A DNA stretch of 64,000 nucleotides from Streptosporangium album (GCF_014203795.1 NZ_JACHJU010000006.1:1-64000), one strand, 5' to 3'; numbered from the stretch's first letter, positions 31,258 to 39,546 are shown. Numbers and translations are program-made. The notes: generated from the letters alone by a model not told the origin.

Positions 31258-32685
31258 TCAACGGCCCTGCTGGGGAGCCTCCACCGGGCAGCCGGTCGGC
31301 GGCTCCGCGTCGATCAGGATGTTCCCGCGGATGGAGAGGAAGGTGATCAGCGAGGCCACGGCCATCATCGCCGCGCTGACCAGCATCGTCGTGTGGAAAC
31401 CGGTGGTGAAGGCGGCCGGGTTCTTGAAGACGTCGCCGGTCAGGCCGGCCAGCGGCGGGATCGCGGCGACCGCCAGCAGCCCGCCGGTCCGGGCGACGGC
31501 GTTGTTGATGCCGCTGGCCACACCCGCGTAACGCTCCTCGGTACTGGCGAGCACGGTCGCGGTGAGCGGCGCGACCGCCGCCGACAGCCCCAGGCCGAAC
31601 AGGGCCGTCGGGACCAGCACGCCCACCACGTAGGAGGTGCCCTCACCGATCCTCGACATCAGCAGCAGCGCGGCGGCGCAGATCAGAATGCCCGCCGTCA
31701 TCGGGATCCGGGGCCCGATCCGCTTGGCCAGCTCACCCGACCGGGGCGACAGCAGCAGCATCAGGACCGTCACCGGGATCATCGCGGATCCGGCCGTCAC
31801 CGGCGAGAAACCCGCCGAGACCTGGAGTTGGACGACCAGCAGGAAGAACACCACGCCCATCGCGGCGTACATGATGAACGTGACGACGTTGACCGCGGTG
31901 AACACCTTCGAGGTGAAGACTCCGATCGGCACCAGCGCGCCGGGTGAGCGCCTGATCTCCAGCCAGACGAACGCCACGCCCAGCAGGACGCCCACCGCGA
32001 CCGGGATCGGCTGGAGGGCGATCAGGCCGTAGGTGATCCCGGCCAGCGCCAGCGCGGCCAGCGCCGCACCGAGCACGTCGAACCGCCCGGTGGCCTCGAC
32101 GTCCCTGCTCTCCGGCGCGTGCCGCAGGCCGACGGCCACCACGAGCGCGGCCAGCGGCAGGTTGATCAGGAACACCCACCGCCATCCGACGGTCTCCACC
32201 AGCCACCCGCCGAGCAGCGGCCCGACCGCCGCGGCCATCCCGCCCAGTCCCGACCACGCGCCGATCGCCTTGGGCCGGTCCTCGCGGACGTAGGACGCCT
32301 GGATGATGGCCAGGGAGCCCGGTGTGAGCAGTGCCCCGCCGACGCCCTGGAGCGCCCGGGCCGCGATCAGCGTCTCCACGTTCGGGGCCAGCCCGCACAG
32401 GGCCGACGCGATCGCGAACCAGACCACGCCGATCAGGAAGACCTTGCGCCTGCCGTACCGGTCGCCGAGCGAGCCGCCCAGCAGGATCAGGCCCGCCAGG
32501 GTGAGGGTGTAGGCGTTGACGGTCCACTGCAGTCCCGCCATGTCGGCTCGGAGATCGTCGCCGAGCGCGGGCAGCGCCACGTTGACGACGGTGCCGTCCA
32601 GCAGCGCGATGCCCGATCCGAGCACGGTGGTGAGCAGGACCCAGCGCCCCTGGGCTGAGCTGAGCCGAATATGGCCGTTATCCAT
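31258..32685 (-). CDS. MFS drug:H+ antiporter, DHA2 (EmrB/QacA) type, 14 TM segments
   Basis: A 475-residue membrane transporter. Motif A GDRYGRRKVFLIGVV follows TM2; LDGTVVNVALPAL in TM1 is the DHA2 motif D1 signature. TM5 antiporter motif C is seen as GGMAAAVGPLLGGWLVETVGWRWVFLINLP. About 14 hydrophobic segments are visible. Start ATG 32685 is preferred, with GAGGGG just upstream and MDNGHIRLSSAQGRW leading directly into TM1. It is divergent from the STM4015 gene with 114 bp between starts, so it could export a product linked to that operon (inference only). Substrate unknown. Confidence 0.9.
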   Translation of the reverse strand: MDNGHIRLSSAQGRWVLLTTVLGSGIALLDGTVVNVALPALGDDLRADMAGLQWTVNAYTLTLAGLILLGGSLGDRYGRRKVFLIGVVWFAIASALCGLAPNVETLIAARALQGVGGALLTPGSLAIIQASYVREDRPKAIGAWSGLGGMAAAVGPLLGGWLVETVGWRWVFLINLPLAALVVAVGLRHAPESRDVEATGRFDVLGAALAALALAGITYGLIALQPIPVAVGVLLGVAFVWLEIRRSPGALVPIGVFTSKVFTAVNVVTFIMYAAMGVVFFLLVVQLQVSAGFSPVTAGSAMIPVTVLMLLLSPRSGELAKRIGPRIPMTAGILICAAALLLMSRIGEGTSYVVGVLVPTALFGLGLSAAVAPLTATVLASTEERYAGVASGINNAVARTGGLLAVAAIPPLAGLTGDVFKNPAAFTTGFHTTMLVSAAMMAVASLITFLSIRGNILIDAEPPTGCPVEAPQQGR

Positions 32686-32799: not shown

Positions 32800-33750
32800 A
32801 TGGACCACACCGAGTTCAACGACGATGTCGACGGTCTCTACGACGGCACCTACGCCGGCCTGCCGATAGCGGTCCTGACCTCCGACGACGAGGAGCTACC
32901 CGCCGCGGACCAGGCGGCCTGGCGGCTCTCGGAACACGTCTACGACTCGGAGGAGAACTTCGAACAGCAACTCGCCCTGTTCCTGGAGAAGGTGGACACC
33001 ACCGCGGTCAAGGCGGTCGTCATCGGCGGCTGGGAGGACGCCTACGACGACGACAGTTCGAAGGTCGTCGGCCTGCTCGCCGAGAACGCCGCCCGCCTCC
33101 CGGCGCTGCGTTCGCTGTTCCTCGGCGCGATGACGTCGGAGGACTGCGAGATCTCCTGGATCCAGCAGAGCGACATCACCCCCCTGCTGGAGGCGTTCCC
33201 CCTGCTGGAGCGGCTGGAGGTGCGCGGCGGTTCCGGGCTCCGGCTGCGCCCCATCCGGCACGAGAACCTCAGGGTGCTGAGGTTCGAGACGGGCGGTCTC
33301 CCCGCCGAGGTCGTCCGCGGGGTCGGCGGGTGCGCGTTTCCCGCCCTCGAACACCTGGAGCTGTGGCTGGGCGTCTCTCAGTACGGCGGCGACGCCACGG
33401 TGGCGGACCTGGCACCGATCCTGTCCGGCGAGAACCTCCCCGAGCTGCGGCATCTCGGCCTGCAGGACAGCGAGATCCAGGACGAGATCGCGGCCGCGGT
33501 GGCGGCGGCGCCGGTGGTGGCGCGACTGGAGTCGCTGGCCCTCTCCATGGGGGCGCTGACCGACGAGGGCGCCGAGGCGCTGCTGTCCGGTCAGCCGCTG
33601 ACCCACCTCGGGCGATTGGACCTGCACCACCACTTCCTGACCGACGCCATGGTCAAGCGCGTCGAGGACGCCTTCACCGGTGTCGAGGTGGATCTGTCCG
33701 GACAGGAGAAATCCGACGACGACTGGCGCTACGTCGCGGTCGCGGAATGA
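32800..33750 (+). CDS. STM4015 family leucine-rich-repeat protein
   Basis: A 316-residue cytoplasmic protein matching the database family named after Salmonella STM4015. AGGAG lies six bases before ATG 32800. The N-terminal part is acidic (EFNDDVDGLYDGTYAGLPIA). Residues ~90-300 form leucine-rich repeats (LPALRSLFLGAM, FPLLERLEVRGGSGL, FPALEHLELWLGV, LPELRHLGLQDSEI, LTHLGRLDLHHHFLTD), a curved protein-binding surface. It is first in a five-gene operon; its stop overlaps the next start (ATGA). In such a set it may hold a substrate or partner for the radical SAM enzymes. No activity is known for the family. Confidence 0.85.
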   Translation: MDHTEFNDDVDGLYDGTYAGLPIAVLTSDDEELPAADQAAWRLSEHVYDSEENFEQQLALFLEKVDTTAVKAVVIGGWEDAYDDDSSKVVGLLAENAARLPALRSLFLGAMTSEDCEISWIQQSDITPLLEAFPLLERLEVRGGSGLRLRPIRHENLRVLRFETGGLPAEVVRGVGGCAFPALEHLELWLGVSQYGGDATVADLAPILSGENLPELRHLGLQDSEIQDEIAAAVAAAPVVARLESLALSMGALTDEGAEALLSGQPLTHLGRLDLHHHFLTDAMVKRVEDAFTGVEVDLSGQEKSDDDWRYVAVAE

Positions 33751-34835
33751 CCTCCCTGACGGTCGTCGGCACACCGGGGGAGCGGCGGGTGACCCTGTTC
33801 GCCGAGGCCTGCGCCCGGTACGGCCTGCGTGAGCCCGGCGTCGTCCCATGGACCGCGGTGCTCCGGGGCGAGGACCTCCGCCTGGAGCCCGGAACGCTCG
33901 TGCGGATCGAATCCCCCGGAGAGGACGCCGAGGCCGACGCGCTGCTGCGCGGTCCGGGCGAGCCGTCCAGGGTCGGCGGCGGCGGCGCCTGGCACGCCGC
34001 CCTCACCACCGCGACGGCGCGGATCCGCGAGGCCGTCGAGCGGACGCCCGGCGCCGTGCTGCTCGCCGATGTGGACGAGATCGCGGTGATGTTCGACAAG
34101 CGGCTGTGCCACGCGAGGCTGTCGGCGGCCGGAGTGCCGGTGCCGCCCGCACTGCCTGGTCCGGTCGGAGACTACGCCGGGCTGCGCGAGCAGATGGACC
34201 AGGCCGGTTGGGGCCGGGTGTTCGTCAAACCCGCACACGGATCGTCGGCCTCCGGGATCATCGCCCTGCACGCCTCCGCGGACCGGGTCAGGGCGGTGAC
34301 CTCGGTGGAGCTGGCCGGAGACGGTCTGCACAACTCGCTGCAGGTGCGCTCCTACGAGGACGAGATCGACGTGGCCGCGATCGTCGACATGCTGGCGGGG
34401 GACGGGCTCCACGTGGAGCGGTGGTTTCCCAAGGCGGGCGTCGGCGGGCGGACCATCGATCTGCGGGTGGTCGTGGTGGACGGCACACCCACTCACGCGG
34501 TGGTCCGGGCGAGCCGTACTCCCATGACGAACCTGCACCTCGGCGGCGAGCGGGGCGATCTCGACGTGGTCAGGGAGAAGGTCGGCCCGCAGGGCTGGGG
34601 GCGGGCGCTCGACGTCTGCGCGCGGGCGGCGGCCTGCTTCCCGGGGAGCCTGGCCGTCGGGGTCGACCTGATGATCGGCGTCGGCTGGCGGAGCGTGGCC
34701 GTGGCCGAGGTCAACGCCTTCGGCGATCTGCTGCCCCGGCTGACCGGCTTCCCCGGCGGCGGCGCCGAGGGCCTGGACACCTACGACGCGCAGGTCAGGG
34801 CCATCGCCGCGCGCCGTACGGCGGGAGCGCGGTGA
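33747..34835 (+). CDS. STM4014 family ATP-grasp-like protein
   Basis: A 362-residue protein. The fold is ATP-grasp-like: VMFDKRLCHARLSAAGVPVP marks the preceding helix, VFVKPAHGSSASGIIAL the ATP-binding Lys strand, and RWFPKAGVGGRTIDLRVVVV plus AVAEVNAFGDLLPRL the metal-binding region (Glu, Asn). ATP-grasp enzymes join carboxylates to amines or thiols. If active, this one would ligate or activate a small molecule or peptide within the STM401x pathway. It overlaps STM4015 and the next gene by four bases each, implying strict cotranslation. Confidence 0.85.
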   Translation: MTSLTVVGTPGERRVTLFAEACARYGLREPGVVPWTAVLRGEDLRLEPGTLVRIESPGEDAEADALLRGPGEPSRVGGGGAWHAALTTATARIREAVERTPGAVLLADVDEIAVMFDKRLCHARLSAAGVPVPPALPGPVGDYAGLREQMDQAGWGRVFVKPAHGSSASGIIALHASADRVRAVTSVELAGDGLHNSLQVRSYEDEIDVAAIVDMLAGDGLHVERWFPKAGVGGRTIDLRVVVVDGTPTHAVVRASRTPMTNLHLGGERGDLDVVREKVGPQGWGRALDVCARAAACFPGSLAVGVDLMIGVGWRSVAVAEVNAFGDLLPRLTGFPGGGAEGLDTYDAQVRAIAARRTAGAR

Positions 34836-35656
34836 GCATGACGCGGGACATGAACGCGATCGTGGGGAGCCACGACCTGCTGCTGGTGACGCTCGACACG
34901 CTCCGCTACGACGTGGCCGACGAGCTGATCAGAGCGGGACGGCTGCCCACCCTGGCCAGGGCGCTGCCCGGCGGGCGATGGCAGCGGCGGCACAGCCCCG
35001 GAAGCTTCACCTACGCCGCGCACGCCGCGATCCTCGCCGGGTTCCTGCCGACCCCGGCCGATCCCGGACCCCATCCCCGGCTTTTCGCGGCCGCGTTTCC
35101 CGGTAGCGAGACCACGGCGGACGGGACCTGGGCGTTCGACGCGCCCGACCTGCCCGGCGGGCTGGCGGAGGCCGGCTACCACACGGTCTGCGTCGGGGGA
35201 GTGGGGTTCTTCAACAAGCTCACCCCGCTGGGGTCCGCGCTGCCCGGCCTGTTCGCCGAGAGCCACTGGGAGCAGGGGTTCGGGGTCACCTCGCCGACCT
35301 CGTTCGAGGAGCAGATCGCCTGCGCCGAGCGGGCGGTCGCGGGAGTGGCAGGGCCGGTGTTCCTGTTCGTCAACGTCTCGGCGCTGCACCAGCCGAACTG
35401 GTTCCATCTGCCGGGAGCCACCCGCGAGCACGGGGACAGCCGGCAGAGCCAGGCAGCCGCGCTGGAGTATGTGGACCGGCACATCGGCAGGCTGTTCGCC
35501 CTGATGAGCGCCCGGCGGCCGGGTTTCGCGATCGTCTGTTCCGACCACGGCACCGCTTACGGCGAAGACGGATACACCGGGCACCGGATCGGCCACGAGG
35601 TCGTCTGGACCGTGCCCTACGGAGATTTCACGATGGAAAAGGGGGGATGGCGGTGA
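34832..35656 (+). CDS. STM4013/SEN3800 family hydrolase (alkaline-phosphatase/sulfatase fold)
   Basis: A 274-residue protein. GTG 34832 overlaps the previous stop (GTGA); ATG 34838 is in frame. The fold is that of sulfatases and phosphoglycerol transferases. LLLVTLDTLRYDVADEL holds the first metal Asp, SPGSFTYAAHAAILAGFLPT the position of the nucleophile (a Thr or Ser candidate, with no CxPxR sulfatase signature), and FAIVCSDHGTAYGEDGYTGH the second Asp-His metal pair with a following His. A phosphatase or phosphodiesterase is therefore more likely than a true sulfatase. No signal peptide, so it acts in the cytoplasm. Confidence 0.85.
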   Translation: MSMTRDMNAIVGSHDLLLVTLDTLRYDVADELIRAGRLPTLARALPGGRWQRRHSPGSFTYAAHAAILAGFLPTPADPGPHPRLFAAAFPGSETTADGTWAFDAPDLPGGLAEAGYHTVCVGGVGFFNKLTPLGSALPGLFAESHWEQGFGVTSPTSFEEQIACAERAVAGVAGPVFLFVNVSALHQPNWFHLPGATREHGDSRQSQAAALEYVDRHIGRLFALMSARRPGFAIVCSDHGTAYGEDGYTGHRIGHEVVWTVPYGDFTMEKGGWR

Positions 35657-37152
35657 CTGCGGATCTCGGTGAGACGCGGGTGCCGGAGGGCGGGCCGGAC
35701 ACGCGGGCGGTTCGGACGGGTCAGGCGCTCCCGGCGGCACACACGGTTCAGGGGCTCCCCGCGTCCCCGCCGGCCGTCGACGGCCCGTTCGACGCGGGGC
35801 CGTACCAGGGCTACGTCTACGCCTACCCGCACAAGACGGCCTACCGGCCGCTGGAGCCGCGCCCGTCGCTGCGGGAGGTATGGGCGGCCGAACCGCTCGG
35901 GAGTCTCTCCCTCTACCTGCACATCCCGTTCTGCGAGATGCGCTGCGGGTTCTGCAACCTGTTCACCCGGACCGGCGCCCCGGAGCGGCTCGTCGCCGCC
36001 TATCTGGACGCTCTGGAACGCCAGGCGCGGGCCGTACGGGACGCCCTGGAGGGGCCGAGGTTCGTGACCGCGGCCATCGGCGGCGGCACGCCGACCTACC
36101 TGAGCGCGGCCGAGCTCACCCGGATGTTCGACCTCACCGAGCGGATCATGGGCGCCGACCTGCGGGCCGTGCCGCTGTCGGTGGAGACCTCACCGGCGAC
36201 CGCGACGGCGGACCGGCTCGCCGTCCTGGCCGAACGGGGCACCACCCGCGTCTCGATCGGTGTGCAGAGCTTCGTCGACGCCGAGGCCCGCGCGGCGGTG
36301 CGCCCGCAGAGACGGCGGGAGGTCGAGGCGGCGCTCGACCGGATCAGGGAGGTGGGGTTCGAGACGCTCAACCTCGACCTGATCTACGGGATCGACGGGC
36401 AGACCGAGCGGTCCTGGCGCCACTCACTGGACGCCGCGCTCGGCTGGAAGCCCGAGGAGATCTACCTCTACCCGCTGTACGTCCGCCCGCTCACCGGTCT
36501 CGGCCGTCGTGCCCACGACTGGGACGACCACCGGCTCGGCCTCTACCGGCAGGGCCGCGACCATCTGCTGGCCGCCGGGTACGAGCAGGTGTCGATGCGG
36601 ATGTTCCGGCTGCCGGGCTCGGCCGGCGCGACCGAGTACTGCTGCCAGAGCGACGGCATGGTCGGCCTCGGCTGCGGCGCCCGGTCCTACACCTCCAGCC
36701 TCCACTACTCCTACGAGTACGCGGTCGGCGCCGGCCAGGTGCGCGCGATCATCGACGACTACGTACGGCTCGCGCCCGAGGAGTTCGCGGTCGCCAACGT
36801 GGGGTTCCGGCTGGGGGAGGACGAACGGCGGCGCCGCCACCTGATCCAGTCGCTGCTCCAGGCCGAGGGACTGGAGACGGCCGCCTACCGGGAGCGCTTC
36901 GGCACCGAGGTGACGGCCGGCTTCGGAGCGGAGCTCGACCTCCTGTCCGGCCGGGGCTGGCTGGAGCCGGCCGTCCCCGGAGCCCCGGGGACCCTCGAAA
37001 ACCCGGGTGCGCCCGAGCCCGCCGGGAGCGGGGCACGCGGTGCCGACCGACTCCGGCTCACTGCCGAGGGTCTCGCGTACTCCGACGCGATCGGCCCGGC
37101 GCTGTTCTCCGGCCGGGTCCGCGAGCTGATGGCCGGGTACGAGGCGTGCTGA
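35647..37152 (+). CDS. STM4012 family radical SAM protein (HemW-like)
   Basis: A 501-residue radical SAM enzyme. LYLHIPFCEMRCGFCNLFTR (~residues 93-112) has the CxxxCxxC iron-sulfur motif, followed by AAIGGGTPTYLS (GGE-like SAM site), SVETSPATATADRL, RVSIGVQSFVDAEARAAVRP and NLDLIYGIDGQTERSW, all in the HemN/HemW order. A C-terminal ~130-residue domain (YEYAVGAGQVRAIIDDYVRL ...) resembles the HemN C domain. The first ~70 residues are variable. It overlaps the preceding gene by 10 bases and the next by seven. The substrate is unknown. HemW relatives handle heme, but that cannot be assumed here. Confidence 0.9.
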   Translation: MAVTADLGETRVPEGGPDTRAVRTGQALPAAHTVQGLPASPPAVDGPFDAGPYQGYVYAYPHKTAYRPLEPRPSLREVWAAEPLGSLSLYLHIPFCEMRCGFCNLFTRTGAPERLVAAYLDALERQARAVRDALEGPRFVTAAIGGGTPTYLSAAELTRMFDLTERIMGADLRAVPLSVETSPATATADRLAVLAERGTTRVSIGVQSFVDAEARAAVRPQRRREVEAALDRIREVGFETLNLDLIYGIDGQTERSWRHSLDAALGWKPEEIYLYPLYVRPLTGLGRRAHDWDDHRLGLYRQGRDHLLAAGYEQVSMRMFRLPGSAGATEYCCQSDGMVGLGCGARSYTSSLHYSYEYAVGAGQVRAIIDDYVRLAPEEFAVANVGFRLGEDERRRRHLIQSLLQAEGLETAAYRERFGTEVTAGFGAELDLLSGRGWLEPAVPGAPGTLENPGAPEPAGSGARGADRLRLTAEGLAYSDAIGPALFSGRVRELMAGYEAC

Positions 37153-38132
37153 CCCCCTCTCCGGAGCCGGAGGCCCGGAATCTCCACGCCCAGGGAGTCT
37201 CGACGGGAACCGGGGAAGGGCCGCCGCCGCGCGCCGACGTCCAGGACCCCCGCCACCTGACGATCCTCTACCGCGGCCCGCTGTCGAGCTGCGACTACGA
37301 CTGTCCCTACTGCCCGTTCGCCAAGCGCCGCGACAGCCCCGACCGGCTCCGCCAGGACCGGGCGGCGCTGGAGCGGTTCACCGGGTGGGTGGCCGGGCGC
37401 GACCATCCGGTCTCGGTGCTGTTCACACCGTGGGGCGAGGGACTGGTCCGCTCCTGGTACCGGCGGGCGATGGTCGAGCTCAGCCACCTTCCGCACGTCC
37501 GGCGGGTCGCCATCCAGACCAACTTCAGCTGCCGCCCCGACTGGCTGGCCGAGGCCGATCTCGGCACGCTCGCCCTCTGGGTGACCTACCACCCCGGCCA
37601 GGTCTCCTACGAGCGTTTCCTGGGCAGGTGCCGGGAGCTGGCCGGGCGCGGGGTCCGCTTCAGCGTCGGCATCGTCGGCCTGCCGGAGCACCTGGAGCGC
37701 GCGCGGAGACTCCGGGCCGACCTGCCGGCGGAGGTGTATCTGTGGGTGAACGCCGCCGAGGGCCACCTCTACACCGATCCCGAGGCGGCCCGCTGGACGG
37801 CGATCGACCCGCTCTTCTCCTACAGCCGGACACCGCACCGCAGCGCCGGGCGGCCCTGCCGTACCGGAGACACCGTGATCTCCGTGGACGGCGAGGGCAC
37901 CGTGCGGCGCTGCCACTTCGTCCCGGCCGTCCTCGGCAATCTCTACGACGGGACGTTCCGCCCGAGCGCCAGGATGTGCCCGGCGGCCCTGTGCGACTGC
38001 CACATCGGCTACGTCCACCTGGAGCAGACCGGTCTCTACGACGTCTTCGCCGGCGGGATCCTGGAGCGCGTCCCGCACATGGACCGGCCCGGGCGGCCCG
38101 CCGGGCCTCAGGTCTCCCGGTCCGGCCGGTAG
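37146..38132 (+). CDS. STM4011 family radical SAM protein
   Basis: A 328-residue radical SAM enzyme from GTG 37146. The cluster motif is SSCDYDCPYCPFAKRRDS (~residues 49-66, CxxxCxxC), then VLFTPWGEGLVRSWYRRAM. A C-terminal set of cysteines (GRPCRTGD, VRRCHFVPAVLGNLYDG, MCPAALCDCHIGYVH) forms a SPASM-like or twitch auxiliary-cluster site. SPASM enzymes typically modify peptides. Two different radical SAM proteins back to back, with an ATP-grasp and a phosphatase-fold enzyme, suggest a multistep modification pathway. The stop lies 25 bp inside the 3' end of the convergent DUF6745 gene. Confidence 0.9.
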   Translation: MLTPSPEPEARNLHAQGVSTGTGEGPPPRADVQDPRHLTILYRGPLSSCDYDCPYCPFAKRRDSPDRLRQDRAALERFTGWVAGRDHPVSVLFTPWGEGLVRSWYRRAMVELSHLPHVRRVAIQTNFSCRPDWLAEADLGTLALWVTYHPGQVSYERFLGRCRELAGRGVRFSVGIVGLPEHLERARRLRADLPAEVYLWVNAAEGHLYTDPEAARWTAIDPLFSYSRTPHRSAGRPCRTGDTVISVDGEGTVRRCHFVPAVLGNLYDGTFRPSARMCPAALCDCHIGYVHLEQTGLYDVFAGGILERVPHMDRPGRPAGPQVSRSGR

Positions 38133-39139
38133 TCGGCCTCGGACAGGCCGAAGGTCCAGGCCACGCCCTCGCGGGCGGTGCGGGTGGCCGGCGGGACCCG
38201 GAGCCAGTATTTACGGAAGGTGCCGTCGGGCTCGGCGGTGGAGTTGACCACCTCGACCATCACCACCGGCTCGTCCTCGGGCAGATCGATGCGCCACAGG
38301 ACGCCGGTCTCGTCCCGATGGCGCGGGGTCGCCCCCGACTCGGCGAGGTAGCGGTCGTAGCCGAAGTGCTCCAGCATGACCCGGCGCAGCTCCGCGTTCT
38401 CCTGGGCACGGATGCGCTCCGGGGTCAGCTTCGCCATGGAGGCGGCGAAGTCGGCCGGGATCGGCGTGCCGCCCCAGGCGTGCACGGCGAAGCCGTCGGG
38501 GAACAGCAGCGCCGGGCCGTCGGCTCGGTGCAGGCGCGACAGCTCGTCGCGGTGCAGCTCGGCCGGGCGCTCGCAGACGATGGCCACCCGTTCGAACGGC
38601 CACCACCAGCCCGCCGCCCGGGCGACCTGGACCAGCCCCTCCACCTCCGGCCTGCCCAGCGCGTCGAACAGCGAAAGCCAGGGCGCGTCCTGCTGGCCCA
38701 GCACCGCGTCCAGGGTCGAGGCGCGCAGCGCGGCCGCGGCCTCCTGCGACTCCTCGGTCGCGGCGATGCCCCGGCGGATCCGGCTGACCAGGGCGCCCAC
38801 CGGCTCCCAGAGCCGTCCGCCGGTCAGCGACCAGGCCAGTGGCCAGGCCGTGGGGCCGAGTGAGGCGTGCACGTCGGCCCTGGCCCGCTCCCACGGCCCG
38901 GTCCGCACCGCGTCGCGCACCGGCTTTCCGGCGCCGAGCAGGGCGATGGCCCTCGCGCCCGCGGCGGGGGAGTCGACCCAGATGATCTTCTCTGGCTCCG
39001 CCAGCCCGGCGATCCGGTAGGCCAGCCGCACTCCCGCCTCGGCCCCGGGCCGGTCGGCGGGGCCGGATCGGAAGGCCACCTCCTCCCAGCGGAGCGCGGC
39101 GGCGGTCAGGACGTCGGCCAGTTCGGTGGTGACGGTCAT
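38108..39139 (-). CDS. DUF6745 protein
   Basis: A 343-residue protein of unknown function. ATG 39139 has GAGGAG eight bases upstream. The N-terminal half (WEEVAFRSGPADRPGAEAGV, LYRIAG, IIWVDSPAAGARAIALL) is helical. The centre has WWWPFERVAIVCERPAELHR. The C-terminal third contains the family hallmark LHRADGPALLFPDGFAVHAW plus GGTPIP, and then GYDRYLAESGATPRHRDETG, LWRIDLPEDEPVVMVEVVNS. Such proteins often sit with leucine-rich-repeat genes, and here the STM4015 operon converges on it. A small gene at 39546 lies 80 bp upstream on the same strand. Confidence 0.8.
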   Translation of the reverse strand: MTVTTELADVLTAAALRWEEVAFRSGPADRPGAEAGVRLAYRIAGLAEPEKIIWVDSPAAGARAIALLGAGKPVRDAVRTGPWERARADVHASLGPTAWPLAWSLTGGRLWEPVGALVSRIRRGIAATEESQEAAAALRASTLDAVLGQQDAPWLSLFDALGRPEVEGLVQVARAAGWWWPFERVAIVCERPAELHRDELSRLHRADGPALLFPDGFAVHAWGGTPIPADFAASMAKLTPERIRAQENAELRRVMLEHFGYDRYLAESGATPRHRDETGVLWRIDLPEDEPVVMVEVVNSTAEPDGTFRKYWLRVPPATRTAREGVAWTFGLSEADYRPDRET

Positions 39140-39219
39140 GATCGAAAGCTCCTCAGCTGAACGGGGACACATGCCCCGGCGGCGCCTCCGGACGGGGGGA
39201 CCGGGGTGGGACGGGAAGG

Positions 39220-39546
39220 TCAGTCGGCGACGACGCGGAAGGCGCCGGGGATGTATTCGCGCTGACGTCGCACGGCGTACCAGCCCTTGGGCAGCGAGAT
39301 CGCGGCGTGCTCCTCGTGCACGACGCGCCCGCCGGAGGGCAGGTGCAGGAAGTGCGGATCCATCGGCCGCAGGCCGCGGACCAGGGTGCCGGGGCCGACC
39401 ACCGCGTGGGCATGGCCGGTGGCCTCGCCCAGGGCCAGCACCAGACGGCCACGGGCGTCAGGCGGCGCGGACGGCGAGTTCCTGGCCGAGGTGGGCACGG
39501 CCTCCTCGCGGACGGGCATGATCAGGATGTCTCCCTGGCGGTACAT
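39220..39546 (-). CDS. Small conserved protein upstream of DUF6745
   Basis: A 108-residue protein from ATG 39546 (GAGGAG upstream) opening MYRQGDILIMPVREEAVPTS. Other clear blocks are GRLVLALGEATGHAHAVVGP and VVHEEHAAISLPKGWYAVRR followed by QREY. The His-rich GEATGHAH and HEEH elements could bind metal. From memory, similar proteins commonly precede DUF6745 genes. The 80-bp spacing and shared strand suggest one transcript. Function unknown. Confidence 0.75.
   Translation of the reverse strand: MYRQGDILIMPVREEAVPTSARNSPSAPPDARGRLVLALGEATGHAHAVVGPGTLVRGLRPMDPHFLHLPSGGRVVHEEHAAISLPKGWYAVRRQREYIPGAFRVVAD

Follow-up and report, generated by a model that had tools for sequence, protein, structure and literature searches.

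ATP-grasp folds are widespread, and among the ligases that have them RimK and LysX/ArgX join amino acids to the C-terminal glutamate of a protein. LysX-type enzymes activate the γ-carboxylate of the C-terminal glutamate of a carrier protein and couple an amine to it, and in LysW-type systems the building block is altered while it is on the carrier (PMC9303977). For pearlins, a carrier peptide supplies the C terminus on which the small molecule is assembled, and a radical SAM enzyme takes part in one such case (PMC9303977). The five protein families STM4011 to STM4015 are common and are named after Salmonella loci only. An earlier note on the present DNA had stated that the families have no assigned function, and we found none demonstrated in the open-access literature: searches with locus names, family names and related terms returned no functional study, and two older Salmonella papers contain the STM genes only as table entries.

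The window, a stretch of 64000 nucleotides of Streptosporangium album DNA, contains all five genes between positions 32800 and 38132 on the plus strand, co-directional, intact and overlapping, in the order STM4015-4014-4013-4012-4011 (Table 1). Successive genes overlap by 4, 4, 10 and 7 nt, which bears out the overlaps of four to ten bases given in the earlier note, and its gene identities were upheld by NCBIfam scores far above the curated cut-offs: 396.3 bits for STM4015 against NF038076 (cut-off 275), 423.8 for STM4014 against NF038074 (175), 403.4 for STM4013 against NF038075 (250), 621.6 for STM4012 against NF006067 (380) and 395.4 for STM4011 against NF038073 (200). All five proteins are clear members of the respective families. 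The start of STM4011 is a GTG at 37146 that overlaps the STM4012 stop; it was masked in a mechanical ORF list because its reading frame stays open upstream of this codon. The nearest loci are those of Streptosporangium and Planobispora, with 84–91% identity in STM4011.

Table 1. Features of the operon and of its immediate surroundings; the start of the MFS gene was assigned from a reading of the sequence
Feature	Position	Strand	Basis
Divergent DHA2-type MFS exporter, neighbour outside the system	31258..32685	-	TIGR00711, 230.0 bits against a cut-off of 230.2
STM4015 family leucine-rich-repeat (LRR) protein, 316 aa, pI 4.3; proposed carrier/substrate	32800..33750	+	NF038076
Acidic linker GQEKSDDDW between LRR body and tail of STM4015	33700..33726	+	Entropy, paralogue identity
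STM4015 C-terminal tail RYVAVAE ending in Glu316; proposed attachment site	33727..33747	+	Conservation
STM4014 family ATP-grasp ligase, LysX/ArgX/RimK-like	33747..34835	+	NF038074, PDB profile, fold
STM4013 alkaline-phosphatase-superfamily metallohydrolase, predicted Thr60 nucleophile	34832..35656	+	NF038075, motifs
STM4012 radical SAM protein, HemN/HemW-like	35647..37152	+	NF006067, PDB hits, CxxxCxxC
STM4011 radical SAM protein, C-terminal SPASM-like cysteine region	37146..38132	+	NF038073, motifs
DUF6745 protein, frequent but not obligate companion	38108..39172	-	PF20530, 372.5 bits
Small His-rich companion (YRQGD..GHAHA..VHEEHAAI), without Pfam family	39220..39546	-	Locus counts

We analysed the co-occurrence of the five families in 197 genomes of the class using the NCBIfam cut-offs. 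The identical 19 genomes exceeded the cut-off for each family and no other genome did so for any of them, a co-occurrence whose significance is inflated by the relatedness of the genomes, the identity of the lists being exact. The five-gene set is thus all-or-none in the 197 genomes, which exceeds a chance grouping, and the proposal of a conserved multi-enzyme unit inherited or transferred whole is supported. Copies on plasmids or plasmid-like replicons in several phyla (Streptomyces, Embleya, Methylobacterium, Deinococcus, Paenibacillus and Salmonella) also support transfer of the whole unit, as does its presence in 154 of 5426 complete E. coli genomes, where it is chromosomal. In E. coli LF82 (L098) the operon is flanked by the yih sulfosugar genes and typA-glnA. 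A plasmid or plasmid-like copy in Bacteroides is damaged; on the Bacteroides finegoldii plasmid (L016:7572-9527) an internal deletion has removed the sequence between the start of STM4013 and the end of STM4012, joining the two, and STM4011 is fused to a HAD hydrolase. Viral spread was considered and rejected: no relative of STM4011 was found in viral contigs, and the STM4015 matches in a few short phage records of Salmonella and E. coli may be host DNA. STM4015 is present in one to five copies per genome and the enzymes are nearly always single. One of the few extra enzyme copies is a second full-length STM4013 homologue (338 bits) located off the operon (G161:C52:2609-3379).

Examination of the neighbourhood showed that a gene pair encoding a DUF6745 protein and a small His-rich protein flanks the operon in 75 of 88 loci. 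Several genomes with the operon lack this pair, and Deinococcus ficus and Skermanella plasmids have the pair without the operon; for this reason neither gene was accepted as a core part. The small His-rich protein gave a weak match to PHROG 27831. Salmonella and E. coli have a HAD-IIB phosphatase gene next to STM4011, and in Bacteroides the two form a single fusion. This phosphatase and the gene pair, as well as the tail and the multiple copies of STM4015, are features beyond those described in the earlier note. Its suggestion that the divergent MFS exporter handles the product was not supported, as the MFS gene was present in only nine of the 88 operon loci and was rejected as a local neighbour. 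Nor was an invariant small precursor ORF, which it had raised, found: the genes overlap and therefore leave no room for one inside the operon, and no further conserved neighbour was detected nearby. In 16 to 22 loci a cluster for a methionine-type ABC transporter lies ~7 kb upstream, apparently by synteny, and several conserved-neighbour clusters were spurious reading frames. The same neighbourhood screen revealed no conserved releasing peptidase and no conserved set of amino-acid-modifying enzymes like LysZYJK.

The best PDB profile matches of STM4014 were to LysX (1uc8, 1uc9 and 3vpd), and RimK was among those listed. An AlphaFold2 model of STM4014, predicted like the others from alignments of sequences of the window and related loci, had a pLDDT of 92.3, and its top Foldseek match was LysX/ArgX 5k2m, which is bound to LysW-γ-AAA. 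VIA-align gave Z scores of 23.7 for ArgX, 23.1 for LysX and 23.1 for RimK, which count as tied since they are less than 1 Z apart. Glutathione synthetase came next (21.8); together with D-Ala ligase and PurK it lies 2 to 4 Z units below the top matches. The motifs DxR, [TS]NL[HD] and ExNxxGD were kept in 99 of 99 STM4014 sequences. Judged by profile and modelled fold, LysX/ArgX and RimK are the closest solved relatives of STM4014.

Both radical SAM proteins have the radical SAM motif, CxxxCxxC, in 108 of 109 sequences for STM4011 and 102 of 105 for STM4012. The C-terminal cysteine pattern of STM4011, CxxG..C..C-C-x-C, was present in 109/109, and the sole PDB profile match of this protein was SkfB, over the SPASM region; the Pfam SPASM model matched weakly, with a score below the Pfam cut-off. 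SPASM-type cysteines are typical of enzymes acting on peptides or proteins. For STM4012 the PDB matches were HemN (1olt, 2.9e-54) and the HemN-like methyltransferase NocN (1.4e-32), and its scores were under the curated cut-offs for both HemW (150.2 against 205.4) and HemN (130.3 against 324.95). The labels 'SPASM-like' and 'HemW-like' given to these two proteins previously stand as resemblances. A role in anti-phage defence was also rejected, its sole support being a weak PADLOC match of STM4012. In STM4013 the motifs LD[TS]LRxD, FT[YW]xxH, DHGT and HxxxH, which represent the metal sites and the threonine nucleophile of the alkaline phosphatase superfamily, were found in 104 of 105 sequences. 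The best sequence match was NPP, and the fold matched sulfatases and phosphoethanolamine transferases about equally. Despite the sulfatases among the fold matches, we rejected a sulfatase assignment, as the formylglycine motif [CS]xPxR was absent (0/105) and the threonine of FT[YW]xxH stands in its place.

We then turn to STM4015 itself. Its profile matched PDB entry 2RA8 over the full length (E 1.4e-106), a structural-genomics entry from Bacteroides fragilis for a WGR+LRR protein that ends in YPMITE. The terminal residue was glutamate in 166 of 168 distinct STM4015 copies from several phyla, which are not independent observations because most of the sampled copies are actinobacterial. One exception comes from a frameshifted contig (L046), and the other is the second STM4015 gene of this genome, which now ends in the decayed tail VYNFVADGRDF. 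The LRR frame of this decayed-tail copy is intact, and it lies far from the enzymes (G000:C1:909488-910228; L109:4932-5885). A third copy in this genome (G000:C1:882736-883029; L110) is interrupted by an in-frame stop. Most copies follow the consensus [YF][VITP]xV[SAGT]-Glu-stop after a variable acidic linker. The entropy of the tail was 0 bits at position −1, 1.95 at −2, 0.62 at −3, 1.05 at −4, 1.73 at −5 and 0.94 at −6, and that of the linker (−9 to −30) was about 3 bits per position across 166 copies, with a sharp border between the conserved tail and the linker, which differs among homologues in both length and sequence. Copies distant from the operon (L101, L103, L104 and L113) retain the tail, and the other four operon proteins showed no common C-terminal residue.

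A terminal glutamate might be an artefact of the ATGA or GTGA overlap with the next gene. This was excluded: the glutamate is encoded by both GAA and GAG, all three stops are used, and in 49 copies no start codon overlaps the end, and hence the residue is not forced by gene overlap. A search with the tail DNA pattern plus stop, which is stringent and represents only one common tail form, gave 17 matches in operon-bearing genomes, all 17 at STM4015 3′ ends, and 17 scattered matches in other genomes, a number close to that of the reversed-pattern control.

Because the present set, with its invariant terminal glutamate, a LysX/RimK-like ligase and tailoring enzymes, has the outline of the LysW and pearlin systems, we propose that STM4015 is a carrier or substrate which STM4014 may load at its C-terminal glutamate, and that the radical SAM enzymes may act on the tethered group. 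Based on sequence and modelled folds, we put the probability of this reading at roughly 55%. The previous suggestion that the LRR protein holds the substrate would then have been right in direction, the LRR protein probably being itself the substrate or carrier, as its invariant glutamate tail suggests. STM4015 would be ribosomally made, with the LRR domain as the recognition body and the flexible acidic linker presenting the short tail that ends in glutamate. STM4014 would phosphorylate a carboxylate of this terminal residue and couple it to an amine, probably supplied by an amino acid or another small compound with an amino group. STM4011 (SPASM type) and STM4012 (HemN/NocN-like) would then alter the tethered group, and the STM4013 metallohydrolase would remove a phosphoryl-type group, perhaps with the HAD phosphatase as well in enterics and Bacteroides. 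The final product would be either released or retained on STM4015. In this scheme we infer the tail as the site of chemistry, the attached group, the order of the steps, the role of STM4013 and the release.

The chief rival, because a release enzyme is missing from the surroundings of the operon, is permanent modification, in which the enzymes would alter the tail or another part of STM4015 for good and the mature LRR protein would be the functional product, as for RiPP-like or cofactor-bearing proteins. The SPASM-type features of STM4011 and the protein-directed kind of ATP-grasp ligase are consistent with such a maturation, and so are the aromatic residue at −6 and the arginine at −7, which are conserved in most copies. 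It is also consistent with copies that have diverged LRR bodies and like tails: for 72 paralogue pairs from 36 multi-copy loci, identity averaged 77% over the last six residues, 63% over the body and 41% over the linker. However, the glutamate alone is invariant. Enteric copies, with the tail YMN[AP]M[YF]TE, do not have the aromatic residue at −6, and Tyr and Phe interchange freely, so that a fixed modified side chain other than the glutamate is disfavoured. We regard permanent maturation of STM4015 as rather unlikely.

Invariance of the C-terminal residue would be just as compatible with a recognition element, and a further possibility is that the tail is a docking tag only, with STM4015 scaffolding or recruiting enzymes whose substrate is an unrelated small metabolite. 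Binding of partners is common among LRR proteins, and a free carboxylate on a conserved tail can serve as a binding motif. The variants of the tail are also relevant. Two forms were recognized, [YF][VIT]AV[SAG]E and [YF]P[SEA][VIL]TE, the second being common to Paenibacillus, Bacteroides and some actinomycetes, and just one of 39 multi-copy loci contained mixed forms. The tail classes track the enzyme phylogeny, with two changes compared with 5.9 expected for shuffled labels, which is not taken as proof of co-evolution because one clade was not rejected (p-AU 0.276) and long branches are present. A docking role appears distinctly unlikely to us, since the sole ligase of the set is nearest to enzymes that have a C-terminal glutamate as substrate, and it would be unusual for a genome to encode several near-identical docking proteins. 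Finally, a graspetide-like reaction, in which STM4014 would link the side chain of the tail glutamate to a nucleophile within STM4015 to form a ring, is brought to mind by the graspetide ligase PsnB among the top Foldseek matches of the STM4014 model and is extremely improbable, as no Ser, Thr or Lys is conserved in the tail as a partner and position −2 is occupied by S, A, G, T or D only.

Returning to STM4015 as a protein loaded at its terminal glutamate, the invariant tail allows a precise prediction for a radical SAM operon, namely that a single peptide of one protein changes in mass. If true, this reading would bring a large folded carrier and radical SAM chemistry into the range of carrier-tethered biosynthesis, and would hint at a metabolite common to soil actinomycetes and gut bacteria. 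We give somewhat less than an even chance to the suggestion that the combination of a full-size LRR amino-group carrier, an ATP-grasp loader and two radical SAM enzymes is a new type of tethered biosynthesis, by which a metabolite is made in actinomycetes, Deinococcus, Paenibacillus, Bacteroides, Salmonella and some E. coli.

Compared with the known systems, the operon shares with LysW and LysX/ArgX a protein with an acidic C-terminal stretch and a terminal glutamate, together with an ATP-grasp ligase that is nearest to LysX/ArgX by profile and fold, although RimK is tied and other ATP-grasp enzymes are close. It differs in that LysW is a small protein with an unlike tail, whereas STM4015 is an LRR protein of 316 residues ending in RYVAVAE, and in having two radical SAM enzymes and a metallohydrolase in place of LysZYJK-type enzymes. 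RimK and ribosomal protein S6 likewise provide an ATP-grasp ligase acting on the C-terminal glutamate of a folded protein, a near-tied fold match and a [TS]NLH motif shared with STM4014; however, RimK adds glutamate residues and works without radical SAM partners. The pearlins have the same outline of C-terminal building on a ribosomal carrier, a radical SAM enzyme being involved in one instance, but the present operon has neither a PEARL ligase nor a short carrier peptide, and its ligase is an ATP-grasp enzyme. In SPASM RiPP pathways the C-terminal cysteine region of STM4011 finds its nearest relative, SkfB; here there is no short precursor peptide, and the candidate substrate is a whole folded protein. 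Unlike in graspetides, no nucleophile that could pair with the acidic residue is conserved in the STM4015 tail. The NCBIfam STM4011–STM4015 families carry no assigned function, and we add the reading based on the tail. Tethered chemistry has so far been known for carriers of quite another kind, such as LysW, and an LRR protein as the carrier would thus appear to be new.
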